Source of the DNA: Clostridia bacterium
GTDB taxonomy: Bacteria; Bacillota; Clostridia; Oscillospirales; Acutalibacteraceae
Direction of reading: 5' to 3'
NCBI GenBank assembly: GCA_017624735.1
Contig: JAGAMK010000006.1
Span: forward strand, 1-56,290
DNA length: 56,290 bases
Notes under the pieces: model-generated
Told to the model about the DNA's origin: nothing
The model's database searches: none
Seen by the model: the letters and a program-made list of their open reading frames with translations, nothing else
Translations under genes and position numbers: made by a program
Shown: one piece after another, positions 9,053 to 39,250 of the stretch
Layout: each line of letters begins with the position of its first letter
Numbering within the stretch: position 1 is the stretch's first letter

Positions 9053-9358
9053 GCATTCTGCGGCTTTGGGCGAATTCTGCCCAAATCACAGAAAACGATA
9101 TGCGATGAAGCGGTAGGTGGCTGCACGACGATGCAGGGAATTACCGTGGAGTATGTCTGATTTTAAATCGGGCGACCAATAATGCTTTAAAAACCTTGCG
9201 GCATACCCCAACTGTGCCGTAACGGTACTTGCAGGAGCATTCTGCGCTATTTTACGCCGTCCGAAAAATCAGAACCGATTTTTCGGTTTTAAAAACGGAA
9301 GGGTGGAAACACCCGGATGAGTTGCAAGTAAAATAACGTGCCCAGTAAATTAGGAGGA
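9053..9358 (+). promoter_or_regulatory. Long structured 5' leader of the S10 operon, candidate autoregulatory RNA
   Basis: Several stems can be drawn: TTTGGGC/GCCCAAA (9065-9086); CGGTA...TACCG enclosing CTGCA-loop-TGCAG (about 9110-9147); GTATG/CATAC closing a multiloop; TGCCG-TAA-CGGTA; an A/U-rich stem CCGAAAAATC/GATTTTTCGG followed by TTTT that looks like an attenuator (about 9260-9290); and GGGTG-GAAA-CACCC. TACTTGCA near 9229 can pair with TTGCAAGTA near 9322. No open frame is evident. It probably senses a ribosomal protein, by analogy with other S10 operon leaders. Which protein is unknown. Confidence 0.6.
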
Positions 9359-26469: not shown

Positions 26470-26592
26470 ATCGTGCGAAGCAGATTGAAAGAGTATTCTG
26501 ACTGTCTGTGGACGATATTCCGGAGAATTCCACATTGTGGATACCGAAGGTGCAAGGCGTAATGCTAATCTCTCAGGTCAAAGGACGGAAAT
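26470..26592 (+). promoter_or_regulatory. Glycine riboswitch, single aptamer with a 5' ghost stem
   Basis: The glycine aptamer core is recognisable: GGAGAATTCC, GTGGATACCGAAGG, GCAAGGCG and ATCTCTCAGGTCAAAGGACGG (last read as 26568-26588). Only one full aptamer is present. Upstream, ATCGT/ACGAT (26470-26516) with CAGA/TCTG forms the short stem expected of a ghost aptamer in singlet glycine riboswitches. The downstream gene is an alanine/glycine symporter, the commonest partner. Confidence 0.9.
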
Positions 26593-26608
26593 TTCTTTTT
26601 AGATTTTT

Positions 26609-35828: not shown

Positions 35829-35861
35829 AAACATGTAATATTTTGAAAGGAGATGATAACG

Positions 35862-36059
35862 GTGGACAAAAAGCGAAAATTTAAAGCTGCACGTGATTTA
35901 TGCGGTTTAACACAAGACGGGCTTGCTAAAGCCGTTGGAGTCTCCCGACAAACAATAGTCAGCATAGAAAAAGGTGGAGGGAACCCAACACTCGACCTAT
36001 GCAAAAGAATTTGTAAAGCACTAAATAAAACCTTAGATGAATTATTTGGGGAGGAATAA
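35862..36059 (+). CDS. Small HTH controller-like protein of the restriction-modification system
   Basis: A 65-residue XRE-family protein consisting of little more than the helix-turn-helix (LTQDGLAKAVGVSRQTIVSI, ending LDELFGEE). A GTG start at 35862 is chosen: AAAGGAG is 9 nt upstream, while the ATG at 35853 abuts it. It lies 4 nt before the RM gene in the same operon, the arrangement of controller (C) proteins that time restriction after methylation. That role is inferred from size and position. It could instead be a generic YgzD-like regulator. Confidence 0.8.
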   Translation: MDKKRKFKAARDLCGLTQDGLAKAVGVSRQTIVSIEKGGGNPTLDLCKRICKALNKTLDELFGEE

Positions 36060-36063
36060 TAAA

Positions 36064-38094
36064 ATGACTAATTGGAAATTAGAAGATAATGTAAATGATT
36101 GGGTTAAAACCGAGTTTTCGCGAATAGGACAAGATAAATTCACAGTAGAATCTGCAATGTCTAAACATTTAAAATCAGCGCTGCAGGAAGGTGCTAAACT
36201 CAAAAAGATTGAATTTGAAGAGGCGGGAGAATCAAGTGGCAAGTCATGGAAACCCGATTTCGAACTTGAATATAATAATTTACCGCCTGTAATCATTGAA
36301 AATAAACTTGGATTAAAAAAGCTGATAGCCACAAGTGGCGATACAATAAAAAAGGATGCTAAATCTGTTCAAAACTATGCTGTGAACGGTGCTATTCATT
36401 ATGCTCAATGTGCTTTGTTAAGCAAAAAATATACTGATGCTATTGCAATAGGTATTGCAGGTGACAATTCTGAAAATGTAACAATAAAGGTTTATTATGT
36501 TTATGGTTCTGGCGATAATACATATAAGATTATTCCAAATTGCACCGAACTCGATTTTTTAGAATCCGAAAGTTCTTTACAAGAATTTTACAAATCTGCT
36601 GTATTGACCGAAGCAGAGAAACATCAAATTTTAATCACATCCCGCGCTAAATTACAAGAGTATGCTAAGAAACTCAATAAATTAATGCACAATCACTCTA
36701 TTACTGCACCACAAAGGGTGTTGTATGTTTCGGGTATGCTTCTATCTATGCAAGACATAGGTAATAAAAAAGTAGGTTTGACGCCAGACGATTTGAAAGG
36801 AATAGATTTACAAGGTTTTCGTGACGGCGATATTATTGTAAATCATATAGAAAATTATTTAAAAAATAAGAAAATTCCTGAAGATAAATTAAACCTAATG
36901 ATGGCTTCTTTTAAAGAAATCAATAAAGATTCAGATCGTGATAAAAATATCCTATTAGATGATATAGTGTCGAAATTGTTAAAAGTAAATGCTAGTGTAA
37001 ACAAGCAGATTTTTACTTACATTTATGAAAACATCTTTCTGTCTATTGATTCTATGAGTGGGCATCTTGATATTATGGGTGAGATGTACTCTGAGTTTTT
37101 GAAGTATGCTTTAGGTGATGGTAAAGAAATCGGAATTGTTTTAACTCCGCCGTATATAACAAAAATGATGGCACAAATATTGGAAGTTGATGAAGAATCG
37201 AGAGTTATGGACTTGGCAACAGGTTCGGCAGGCTTTTTGATTTCTTCTATGGAACTAATGATAGAATGTGCAGAAAATAAATTTGGCAAGGGCACTAAGA
37301 AAGCAAATGATACAATTTCGAAAATCAAGAAAAAACAATTGCTTGGTGTTGAACTCAATGCTGAAATGTACACCTTAGCATCTACGAATATGATTTTACG
37401 TGGTGATGGCTCAAGTAATATCAAAAAAGGCTCATCTTTCGATGAACCACCGGAATTATATAAAAAATTTAATGCAGACAGATTGCTTTTAAACCCACCG
37501 TTCAGTTTCCGAGAAAACGGTATGCCGTTTATTAGTTTTGGATTAAAAAATATGAAAAAAGGTGGTAAAGCCGCCATAATCATTCAGGATTCGGCTGGTA
37601 GTGGAAAAGCTGTTTCTACTTGTAAAACCATTCTTAAATCAAATCAGTTAATTGGTAGTATAAAAATGCCTATCGATTTGTTTAACCCTATGGCAGGTGT
37701 GCAAACAAGTATTTATATATTTGAGCATACCGGCAAAAAACATGACTATACAAAACAAGTTAGATTTATCGATTTTAGAAATGACGGATATAAGCGTACA
37801 AAACGAGGTATGCTTGAATTAGATAACCCTACACAGCGATATAAAGATATCGTTGAAATATTTAAAAACGGCGTTACTGCAAATGTGTCAAGTGAACTCT
37901 GGGATTTGAACAAACAAGTTGTTATGGATGTTATTACATCAAACGGAAATGATTGGAATTTTGACCAGCACAGTAAGATTGACCTTATTCCCACTGTTGC
38001 GGATTTTAAAAAGACTGTTAGCGACTATTTAGCTTGGGAAGTTACTAATGTTTTGAAAAATCAAACCTTGGAGGATGAACGCCTGGGAAAATAG
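36064..38094 (+). CDS. BcgI-like type IIB restriction-modification (RM) subunit
   Basis: A 676-residue fusion of nuclease and N6-adenine methyltransferase. The N-terminal part has a PD-(D/E)xK nuclease core: Pro64-Asp65 in SWKPDFELEY and Glu79-x-Lys81 in VIIENKLGL. The methyltransferase shows GIVLTPPYITKMM, motif I DLATGSAGFLISS (near residue 385) and the catalytic NPPF (near 478). Size and order match BcgI subunit A (637 residues in BcgI), and the next frame is its specificity partner. ATG 36064 follows GGGGAGG. The gene ends CTG GGA AAA TAG, a slippery site in phase with the specificity frame. Confidence 0.85.
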   Translation: MTNWKLEDNVNDWVKTEFSRIGQDKFTVESAMSKHLKSALQEGAKLKKIEFEEAGESSGKSWKPDFELEYNNLPPVIIENKLGLKKLIATSGDTIKKDAKSVQNYAVNGAIHYAQCALLSKKYTDAIAIGIAGDNSENVTIKVYYVYGSGDNTYKIIPNCTELDFLESESSLQEFYKSAVLTEAEKHQILITSRAKLQEYAKKLNKLMHNHSITAPQRVLYVSGMLLSMQDIGNKKVGLTPDDLKGIDLQGFRDGDIIVNHIENYLKNKKIPEDKLNLMMASFKEINKDSDRDKNILLDDIVSKLLKVNASVNKQIFTYIYENIFLSIDSMSGHLDIMGEMYSEFLKYALGDGKEIGIVLTPPYITKMMAQILEVDEESRVMDLATGSAGFLISSMELMIECAENKFGKGTKKANDTISKIKKKQLLGVELNAEMYTLASTNMILRGDGSSNIKKGSSFDEPPELYKKFNADRLLLNPPFSFRENGMPFISFGLKNMKKGGKAAIIIQDSAGSGKAVSTCKTILKSNQLIGSIKMPIDLFNPMAGVQTSIYIFEHTGKKHDYTKQVRFIDFRNDGYKRTKRGMLELDNPTQRYKDIVEIFKNGVTANVSSELWDLNKQVVMDVITSNGNDWNFDQHSKIDLIPTVADFKKTVSDYLAWEVTNVLKNQTLEDERLGK

Positions 38095-38135
38095 AAGCCT
38101 CACTTGACGAAAAACTCAAAAATGTTGAGTGGGGC
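38070..38135 (+). other. Candidate programmed -1 frameshift site joining RM and S subunits
   Basis: The heptamer G GGA AAA (38085-38091) is in the RM frame directly before the TAG (38092-38094). An SD-like GGAGG (38070-38074) ends 10 nt upstream. Five nt downstream begins the stem GCCTCACT (38097-38104) with AGTGGGGC (38128-38135), 8 bp with one G-U pair, and an inner CAA/TTG. After a -1 slip the next codons are ATA GAA GCC TCA, open to the S stop at 39212. The fusion would be 1049 residues. These are the three elements of the dnaX-type frameshift cassette. Confidence 0.6.
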
Positions 38136-38180
38136 GAATATAAAATCTGTGATTTATTTAAAGTTGTAAAAATCACAAAA

Positions 38181-39212
38181 ATGCTTTCAAAAGAAAACTT
38201 AAACAACAAATTTTTATATCCCGCATATTCATCTGATTCTTCGAACAATGGCATTGTCGGTTATACAGATGATCCTGAATTTATTTGCGATGACAAAACA
38301 CCTGTATATGTAACTTTTGGCGATCATACTAGGACGATGAATATTGCAAGAAAAAGTTTTTCAGTTCTTGATAATGTTAAAGTATTATTGCCCACCTATT
38401 ATAGTGATAAAGTTCTTTTATTCATATTTGCAGTATGGCGAAAGCATATACCAAATTTAGGATATGCAAGACATTGGAAAATTGCAAATAAATGCGTTTT
38501 GGAATTGCCCACAAAAAACAATTCATTAGACACTGATTTTATTGAGAATTTTATTGCCGAGCTGGAAGCACGGCACATTGCCGAGCTGGAGGCATACCTC
38601 TCTGTTACAGGACTTAATGATTATAATTTGTCTACTATCGAGCATCAAACTTTGACAAATTATGTTAGCGGAAAAATCGAATTTAAAGAACATAACATTT
38701 TCGAATTGTTTAAAATTGAGTCATACAAAAAGCGTTTTGATTCTAACAAGGTAACTGTTAAGGATAACGGAAAATTCCCGTATGTTGTGCGCATGAGTAC
38801 GAATAACGGACAAAAAGGTTTTATAGATGAAAACAAAGAGTATCTAAATGAAGGAAATACTATTTCTTTCGGGCAAGATACGGCAACGATGTTTTATCAA
38901 GAGAAACCTTATTTCACAGGCGATAAAATTAAGATATTAAAGCCAATACACAACAAATTCGGCAAAGAGAATGCTCTGTTTTTTATTACCGCAATGTCAA
39001 AATCTTTTAGCAATTTTTCTTGGGGAAGCTCAAGTTTTAATGTGAAAATCATTGAAAATCAAAAGATAATTTTACCGATAAAACAAGGTGAAATCGATTT
39101 TGAAACAATTGAAGTTTTAATTTCAGCTATTAAAAAATTAGTTATTAAAGATGTGGTTAATTATAGCAACACAAAAGTTGAAGAAACTAAAAAGTTTATA
39201 AAAAACGATTAG
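38181..39212 (+). CDS. BcgI-like specificity (S) subunit, true N terminus probably reached by -1 frameshift
   Basis: 343 residues from the first ATG. Two target-recognition halves are joined by a helical spacer (IAELEARHIAELEAYL). The second half begins KIEFKEHNIFELFKIE; the matching start of the first half, KNVEWGEYKICDLFKVV, lies upstream of the ATG in the same frame (38118-38168). The ATG has no ribosome site and no ATG, GTG or TTG exists between 38079 and 38180 in this frame. So the functional protein most likely starts upstream, by slippage from the RM gene. It recognises the bipartite DNA target of the complex. Confidence 0.8.
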   Translation: MLSKENLNNKFLYPAYSSDSSNNGIVGYTDDPEFICDDKTPVYVTFGDHTRTMNIARKSFSVLDNVKVLLPTYYSDKVLLFIFAVWRKHIPNLGYARHWKIANKCVLELPTKNNSLDTDFIENFIAELEARHIAELEAYLSVTGLNDYNLSTIEHQTLTNYVSGKIEFKEHNIFELFKIESYKKRFDSNKVTVKDNGKFPYVVRMSTNNGQKGFIDENKEYLNEGNTISFGQDTATMFYQEKPYFTGDKIKILKPIHNKFGKENALFFITAMSKSFSNFSWGSSSFNVKIIENQKIILPIKQGEIDFETIEVLISAIKKLVIKDVVNYSNTKVEETKKFIKND

Positions 39213-39222
39213 TAATATCGTG

Positions 39223-39250
39223 AAAGCGAGGTGAATTTCACCTCGCTTTT
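39223..39250 (+). terminator. Terminator of the restriction-modification operon
   Basis: AAAGCGAGGTGAA/TTCACCTCGCTTT, near-perfect 13-bp arms. A very similar hairpin ends the gene at 45769 (45774-45798), and its 3' half CACCTCGCTTTT recurs at 44814-44826 beside the second spoVT fragment. Confidence 0.85.

Follow-up and report, generated by a model that had tools for sequence, protein, structure and literature searches.

A predicted and conserved programmed -1 ribosomal frameshift at the RM-S junction of BcgI-like restriction-modification systems

Introduction

Among the closest described systems are BcgI and BsaXI, in which restriction and modification functions are fused in one restriction-modification (RM) subunit accompanied by a specificity (S) subunit with two target recognition domains (TRDs) (PMC11997821, PMC3874165), the stoichiometry of BcgI-type enzymes being two RM to one S (PMC3874165, PMC11997821, PMC4027205). 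The present work concerns a gene pair with the same two components on contig JAGAMK010000006.1 of the Clostridia bacterium assembly GCA_017624735.1, the analysed stretch of 56,290 nt being hereafter called the window. It differs in that the S part lacks its own start, and its predicted route of translation is a -1 ribosomal frameshift at the end of the RM gene.

RM and S also form one chain in AloI, TstI and CjeI (PMC4027205, PMC3874165), but there the fusion exists at the DNA level, whereas here it would arise from a slip, and some of the in-frame fusions described below retain a slippery site. In the Helicobacter pylori systems HP1472/HP1471 and JHP1365/JHP1364, RM is likewise closed by a stop and S has no potential start, which the authors gave as the most likely reason for their inactivity (PMC3936762). 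The likeness to them was drawn via the Helicobacter-type loci of our set, and the likeness to HpyUM032XIII, a related H. pylori BcgI-like system (PMC4450513), via its description.

The candidate signal resembles that of Escherichia coli dnaX, which, as described in PMC3711429, combines a slippery heptamer, a 5′ Shine-Dalgarno (SD)-like site and a 3′ hairpin and gives two products whose ratio matters; the slipped product is short in dnaX, whereas here it would be a long RM-S fusion, and here the heptamer is mostly G_GGA_AAR and lies in a restriction system. The IS3 and IS1 transposases (PMC4066793) share an overlapping set of heptamers and a slip near the end of open reading frame (ORF) 1 which leads to an ORF1-ORF2 fusion, but the product there is a mobile-element transposase kept scarce and not a restriction-modification subunit pair. 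A -1 slippery site has been considered in one restriction system, the fusion of C protein and restriction endonuclease CR.NsoJ138I (PMC3850674), which differs in being an in-frame fusion that a slip would shorten, and whose slipped product its authors did not observe in E. coli. Methyltransferases are among the phage genes known to contain a frameshift (PMC10885494), and PMC4081073 gave no match to frameshift terms. No report of ribosomal frameshifting in the S gene of a restriction-modification system was found among the matches listed, with an unlabelled cluster in the GeneTack or E. coli heptamer surveys being possible. Frameshift signals and BcgI-like systems are each known, and among those matches it is their joining that is new.

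Results

The RM-S junction of the window

The RM gene (Table 1) codes for a predicted endonuclease and N6-adenine methyltransferase chain, which matches N6_Mtase of Pfam (9.6e-32) and the Type IIG profile REase_MTase_IIG of PADLOC (2.1e-210) and possesses the motifs KPDF at residue 63, IIENK at 77, DLATGSAGF at 383 and NPPF at 477. KPDF and IIENK together are presumably PD..ExK-like. The gene ends in CTG GGA AAA TAG with a phased G GGA AAA touching the stop, as the first-pass annotation of this DNA had claimed and as was verified base by base. Its GGAGG ending 10 nt ahead of the heptamer was found in place as well, and so was the S frame, which follows from a -1 slip and stays open for 373 codons. 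The stem it had described does begin 5 nt after the heptamer, although it is 12 bp long instead of 8; it has a folding energy of -17.2 kcal/mol (z -4.4), and none of 200 dinucleotide shuffles folds equally well. All the elements expected of a frameshift signal are found in the window, namely a phased heptamer, a downstream structure and the optional SD-like site.

The S frame is in -1 relative to RM and opens merely 13 bases before the RM stop, the nearest upstream stop being TGA at 38076-38078, and its earliest ATG, GTG or TTG is that at 38181, which agrees with the first-pass annotation. S matches Methylase_S of Pfam (5.8e-26) in two stretches within one frame and Specificity_II of PADLOC (8.2e-27) across residues 9-375 of the predicted protein P0001. 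The two stretches may reflect a two-TRD layout, but S lacks its own start, and it is predicted as a portion of an RM-S fusion of 1049 residues, with computed masses of about 76 kDa for RM and 119 kDa for RM-S. The search of solved structures with S gave no match at E 0.001.

Table 1. Coordinates of the junction and its surroundings in the window.
Feature	Position	Strand	Remarks
RM subunit gene, 676 aa	36064..38094	+	ORF; TAG stop at 38092-38094
GGAGG, SD-like	38070..38074	+	10 nt 5′ of the heptamer
Slippery heptamer G_GGA_AAA (GGGAAAA)	38085..38091	+	phased to the RM frame; abuts the RM stop
S (specificity) part, 373 codons and stop	38091..39212	+	read after a putative -1 slip; TAG at 39210-39212
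Hairpin 5′ arm, 12 bp	38097..38108	+	begins 5 nt 3′ of the heptamer
Hairpin 3′ arm	38124..38135	+	doubles as the VEWG codons of S
Hairpin with T-run 3′ of S, terminator-like	39223..39250	+	seen by eye

Conservation of the heptamer

Relatives comprised 54 loci drawn from 84,980 species genomes and those from further searches of 98, 9, 298, 295, 296, 274 and 291 genomes and of named plasmid and phage records; the class search around an Acinetobacter genome matched only that genome itself (1/274) and the order search around a Chryseobacterium genome three of 296. Out of 145 loci, 137 reach the end of RM, eight being dropped as loci in which this end was unreached or which ran off, and removal of 23 duplicates left 114 unique junctions, divided into 13 in-frame fusions ("fusion/long") and 101 non-fusion junctions. 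The S frame, called by a rule of thumb as the longest open frame about 120 nt past the RM stop, is -1 in 83 of these 101 and +1 in 18.

In 80 of the 83 -1 loci, versus two of the 18 other-frame loci, a phased X_XXY_YYZ heptamer is located at most 21 nt from the RM stop (Fisher p 9e-14, uncorrected for relatedness). The background is low, with phased heptamers at 206 of 30,300 codons (0.7%) and G_GGA_AAR at just three of them, counted over the final 300 codons of RM at these loci, which makes the expected chance of a heptamer about 4% (0.04) per locus. The types found in the 80 loci are G_GGA_AAG (28), G_GGA_AAA (23), A_AAA_AAA (10), C_CCA_AAG (8), A_AAA_AAG (7), A_AAT_TTT (2), C_CCA_AAA (1) and T_TTT_TTT (1); 77 belong to V_VVA_AAR, and the other three match the H_HHU_UUY class of PMC4066793. 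V_VVA_AAR is the shiftiest class in E. coli, the best being C_CCA_AAG, G_GGA_AAG and A_AAA_AAG (PMC4066793).

On a tree of 112 RM proteins, built with a quick method after two short rows were excluded, 78 of the 101 rows of one clade belong to the frameshift class, and this clade spans Bacillota, Bacteroidota, Campylobacterota, Pseudomonadota, Mycoplasmatota and Actinomycetota. The heptamer type changes at least 10 times on this tree, and protein constraint is no explanation for the heptamer because the type switches while the encoded residues differ (GK, KK, PK, NF).

Thirty-five further places, fetched later and treated by identical rules, all came from the Campylobacteria-type search: 33 of the 34 places listed earlier without a locus, the 34th being left out as the other piece of L102, and two longer stretches of run-off loci. 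As kin of the earlier loci, they serve as a check and not as an independent sample. They gave six in-frame fusions and 29 previously unseen non-fusion junctions, 20 of which have S in -1, and the heptamer is present in 19 of these 20; six of the -1 loci (L163, L166, L173-L176) have their RM stop farther downstream, and G_GGA_AAG sits 21 nt ahead of it. In the remaining nine junctions S is in another frame or, in L158, L165 and L172, not clearly recognisable; they include three with some heptamer (L179, L181, L184) and three with an SD-bearing start (L182-L184).

Hairpin, SD-like site and coding constraint

Conservation of the signal among homologues, which the first-pass annotation had named as a way to check it, also extends to the other two elements. 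The best stem starts 4-7 nt past the heptamer in 76 of the 80 loci, and it is better than all 20 dinucleotide shuffles in 63 of the 80 versus one of 19 own-start loci (L023). Stems and loops vary widely among groups, one example being the A_AAA_AAG locus L045 of a Mycoplasma, whose 14-bp stem has no mismatch. Over the 12 pairs of the 36 loci (of 80) with equal spacing, 96.3% of cells are paired, compared with 91.9% after shuffling and 37-51% after sliding, and both sides are changed in 17 cells versus 8.2 in the shuffled rows.

Anti-SD pairing in the 31 loci assigned to Bacillota, one of which (L081) is a phage scaffold with an unnamed host, peaks about 8 nt before the heptamer and reaches -4 kcal or better at a spacing of 6-13 in 28 of them, versus three at the control spacing of 22-29; the second control, 32-39, is also high (16/31), probably because of conserved W-E codons. 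Elsewhere the SD-like site is indistinct, being found in three of 11 Bacteroidota loci (controls 1 and 9) and 19 of 38 others (controls 13 and 14).

The S frame is at least 350 aa long in 62 of the 80 loci. An ATG, GTG or TTG in this frame with an SD of -4 kcal or better between -30 and +44 occurs in only two of the 80 (L036, GTG at +2; L039, TTG at +20) versus 17 of the 19 loci of the own-start class. For the 34 distinct rows with equal spacing, the S frame after the heptamer has a ratio of nonsynonymous to synonymous differences (pN/pS) of 0.49 and a single stop (TGA, in a Mycoplasma with genetic code 4), while the RM frame has 0.75 and 53 stops, many of them RM's own, and the third frame has 1.81 and 68 stops. 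The peptide I/V-D/E-x-x-L-N-x-K-L-x-x-V-E-W-G is discernible throughout these rows.

Helicobacter and E. coli copies

The ten Helicobacter-type loci (L088-L096, L102), which come from genomes of 1.5-2.0 Mb in the class search centred on Campylobacter, carry C_CCA_AAG or, once (L093), G_GGA_AAG, and S is in -1 in nine of them and in another frame in L088. The gene 3′ of S in L152, from the genome of L090, reads by eye as DNA polymerase I, an arrangement also known for HP1470. In L089, L091, L094 and L102, a G tract of 9-13 lies at the end of the S frame or no more than about 20 nt from it, and a G tract of that sort is reported for the phase-variable HP1471. Deletion and phase-locked mutants of HP1471 both colonised mice poorly (PMC4209511), and a BcgI-like system of H. 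pylori UM032 had its motif methylated in the native genome as well as when the system was cloned (PMC4450513). These observations fit a translation of S by frameshifting, and, by analogy, the published H. pylori systems called inactive may have the same design. A puzzle is thereby made testable: the systems were called inactive, yet a colonisation defect of HP1471 mutants and methylation by a related system in its native genome are on record.

In E. coli, which was kept outside the main counts, S is in -1 in L147 and L149 (both with A_AAA_AAG) and in L150 (G_GGA_AAG, with a junction as in phage locus L080). RefSeq marks the S genes of L150 and L151 as pseudo for a missing N-terminus; such genes are likely real, which would have consequences for the annotation of defence systems and methylomes, and a slip-dependent S may account for their being labelled broken. 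Relatives of the PhiR12_3 phage copy were detected in 29 of 5426 complete E. coli genomes, 22 of them across at least 80% of the query. In L148, an IS1 element, itself annotated with a programmed frameshift, sits between RM and the remainder of S.

Variant layouts within the family

Eight of the 13 in-frame fusions possess V_VVA_AAR at the junction and a -1 stop 1-10 codons further on, so that a slip would give RM alone. The hairpin is strong in L031 (-16 kcal) and in L056 and L099 (-22 kcal; their RM rows in the tree are identical), and the other five lack a strong one. Four of the eight (L037, L086, L087, L107) share a near-identical junction, A_AAA_AAG at LKK, although the tree places their RM bodies far from one another, and the later-fetched L156 and L159 have it too; these fusions are not strong support, given their weak stems and the frequency of Lys-Lys codons at this place. 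Among the six later-fetched fusions, the heptamer site is present in two and absent from L160, L180, L187 and L188. Taking both sets together, fusions with V_VVA_AAR at the junction and a nearby -1 stop are L031, L037, L056, L086, L087, L099, L107, L133, L156 and L159, and these may represent an inverted, dnaX-like layout, which we regard as a possible lead. Two other members of the "fusion/long" class, L051 and L063, have only half an S.

Four loci from two lineages (L033, L103, L179, L181) have S in +1, a part of 362-388 aa, without an SD-bearing start. Their RM genes end in AAAAGGA-4 nt-CTT-stop, with best anti-SD pairing of -5.9 in L033 and -3.7 to -3.8 in the other three, a layout of the prfB type (CUU before the stop, an SD-like sequence just upstream and an open +1 frame). 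As a lead, these loci are predicted to use a prfB-like +1 frameshift. It is a tentative idea, rather less probable than its converse, that the whole Type IIB family sets its subunit ratio by frameshifting in three interchangeable layouts: -1 (most loci, the window among them), inverted and +1. If true, it would account for the H. pylori systems that were declared dead because they lack an S start, and would bear on the mystery of one RM per two TRDs in single-chain IIB enzymes (PMC3874165).

Discussion

Taken together, these comparisons point to a conserved programmed -1 ribosomal frameshift by which RM and RM-S would be made from one mRNA, a reading to which we assign a probability of roughly 0.9; the frameshift interpretation of the first-pass annotation is thus supported at the level of sequence. 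Ribosomes completing RM would meet G GGA AAA with the SD-like site on its 5′ side and the 12-bp hairpin 5 nt on its 3′ side, and a fraction of them would slip one base back, with GGA and AAA re-pairing as GGG and AAA, pass the adjacent stop and continue into S to give the 1049-residue RM-S, while the unslipped ribosomes would stop and release RM alone. That slipping takes place in the cell, at what rate and to what end, we infer; the most likely purpose would be the subunit ratio, as a slip of about 50% would supply RM and RM-S at a fixed ratio of about 1:1 and hence (RM)2S with no free S. With this stoichiometry, the minimal complete enzyme would consist of one free RM and one RM-S. An artificial M-S fusion of EcoKI did require extra M in vitro (PMC3510504). 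Such a system would show -1 frameshifting outside transposons, maintained in an antiviral enzyme through several phyla, and would offer a way for a single gene to provide (RM)2S enzymes with two RM per S.

Several results weigh against this reading. The locus closest to the window on the tree, L016 (81% identity, with the same junction as L139), has a normal ATG start of S and no heptamer. The first-pass annotation held that a homologue with a normal S start would refute the frameshift; such a homologue does exist in L016, but the heptamer is gone from it as well, which fits a swap of expression mode better than an error. It is one of three -1 loci (of 83) without a heptamer; L064, like L016, has its own ATG with a strong SD, while L023 has retained the hairpin, and the later-fetched L178 also lacks the heptamer and has an S frame of 142 aa. 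The loci are related, and a tree-corrected test yielded just three independent pairs, so that relatedness is still a conceivable cause of the correlation between heptamer and frame. The S frame is shorter than 350 aa in 18 of the 80 loci, although four of these are truncated by the locus end. If the SD is disregarded, 44 of the 80 have an S-frame ATG, GTG or TTG somewhere from -30 to +44 (ATG or GTG in 23), 42 of the 44 being without an SD, and an SD-bearing start is present in three of the 20 later-fetched -1 loci (L163, L173, L178). Bacteroidota depend little on SDs, which makes the start test weak for the 11 Bacteroidota loci among the 80. As for the hairpin, further pair types were not above chance (74 of 500 shuffles equal or higher), three of the 12 pairs are invariant, and the 3′ arm is also coding. 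The motif of the window, G_GGA_AAA, is poor in E. coli according to older work cited in PMC4066793, and the EcoKI M-S fusion was active in vivo without a separate M gene, where some free M arises according to the authors (PMC3510504).

The same counts bear on the choice between the frameshift and other ways of expressing S. Ribosomes leaving RM might re-initiate at a non-standard codon and make S as a free protein, and such coupling is normal in hsdM/hsdS of EcoKI with its 1-nt overlap (PMC3510504), is in keeping with the 17 of 114 unique loci whose S has its own, SD-bearing start and could draw on a GTG overlapping the RM stop in eight of the 80 -1 loci and an ATG in one. The S-frame codon over the stop, however, is an unusual start in most of them (GTA in 24, CTA in 21, ATA in 19 and TTA in 7 of 80), SD-bearing starts are as rare as stated above, and coupling leaves the heptamer, the spacer and the hairpin unexplained, so we consider it improbable as a general explanation, though re-initiation is conceivable at the single loci L036 and L039. 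A frameshift mutation, a sequencing error or a decayed S gene might be suspected in a draft of 69 contigs, and RefSeq labels the S genes of L150 and L151 as incomplete or pseudo, but S stands in the same frame relative to RM in 83 of the 101 unique non-fusion loci, which come from several phyla, and likewise in L147 and L149-L151, whose E. coli genomes are complete; along with the mostly long S frames, this leaves a very slight chance of such a defect, and error or pseudogene was ruled out by conservation. Slippage of the RNA polymerase on an A run, which would change the frame in the mRNA itself, is conceivable for the A7 of Streptococcus-type loci, with A_AAA_AAA in ten of the 80; it was rejected since 60 of the 80 heptamers (G_GGA_AAR in 51, C_CCA_AAR in 9) have just 3-4 A, and since an RNA hairpin at ribosome spacing would be unaccounted for, which makes it an extremely improbable source of the pattern.

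A different matter is what a real frameshift would be for. It might tether S to RM in cis, whether to aid assembly or never to produce free S, or keep activity low, instead of setting a ratio. Placing the 13 "fusion/long" loci on the tree takes 12 changes, no fewer than nine of which fall on starred branches, so fusion in itself seems workable, and the single-chain TstI functions as a homotetramer (PMC4027205). Against that, the heptamer and early -1 stop kept by eight of the 13 in-frame fusions would restore RM alone, with the caveat that five of the eight lack a clear stem, four have the near-identical junction and L056 is the same enzyme as L099. We therefore regard tethering or low activity as a rather unlikely but still serious purpose.

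Other features of the window

The source genome is a 2.04-Mb draft with a completeness of 97.5%, in which the window is contig 25 and the locus is present in a single copy, the sole other match being 35 bases long. Just 5′ of RM and on the same strand, a candidate small helix-turn-helix gene, seen by eye, is located at 35853-36059 and possibly codes for a controller protein. Elsewhere in the window, a glycine riboswitch aptamer (26510-26598) and an S10-Clostridia ribosomal leader (9097-9178) both score over the Rfam gathering threshold.

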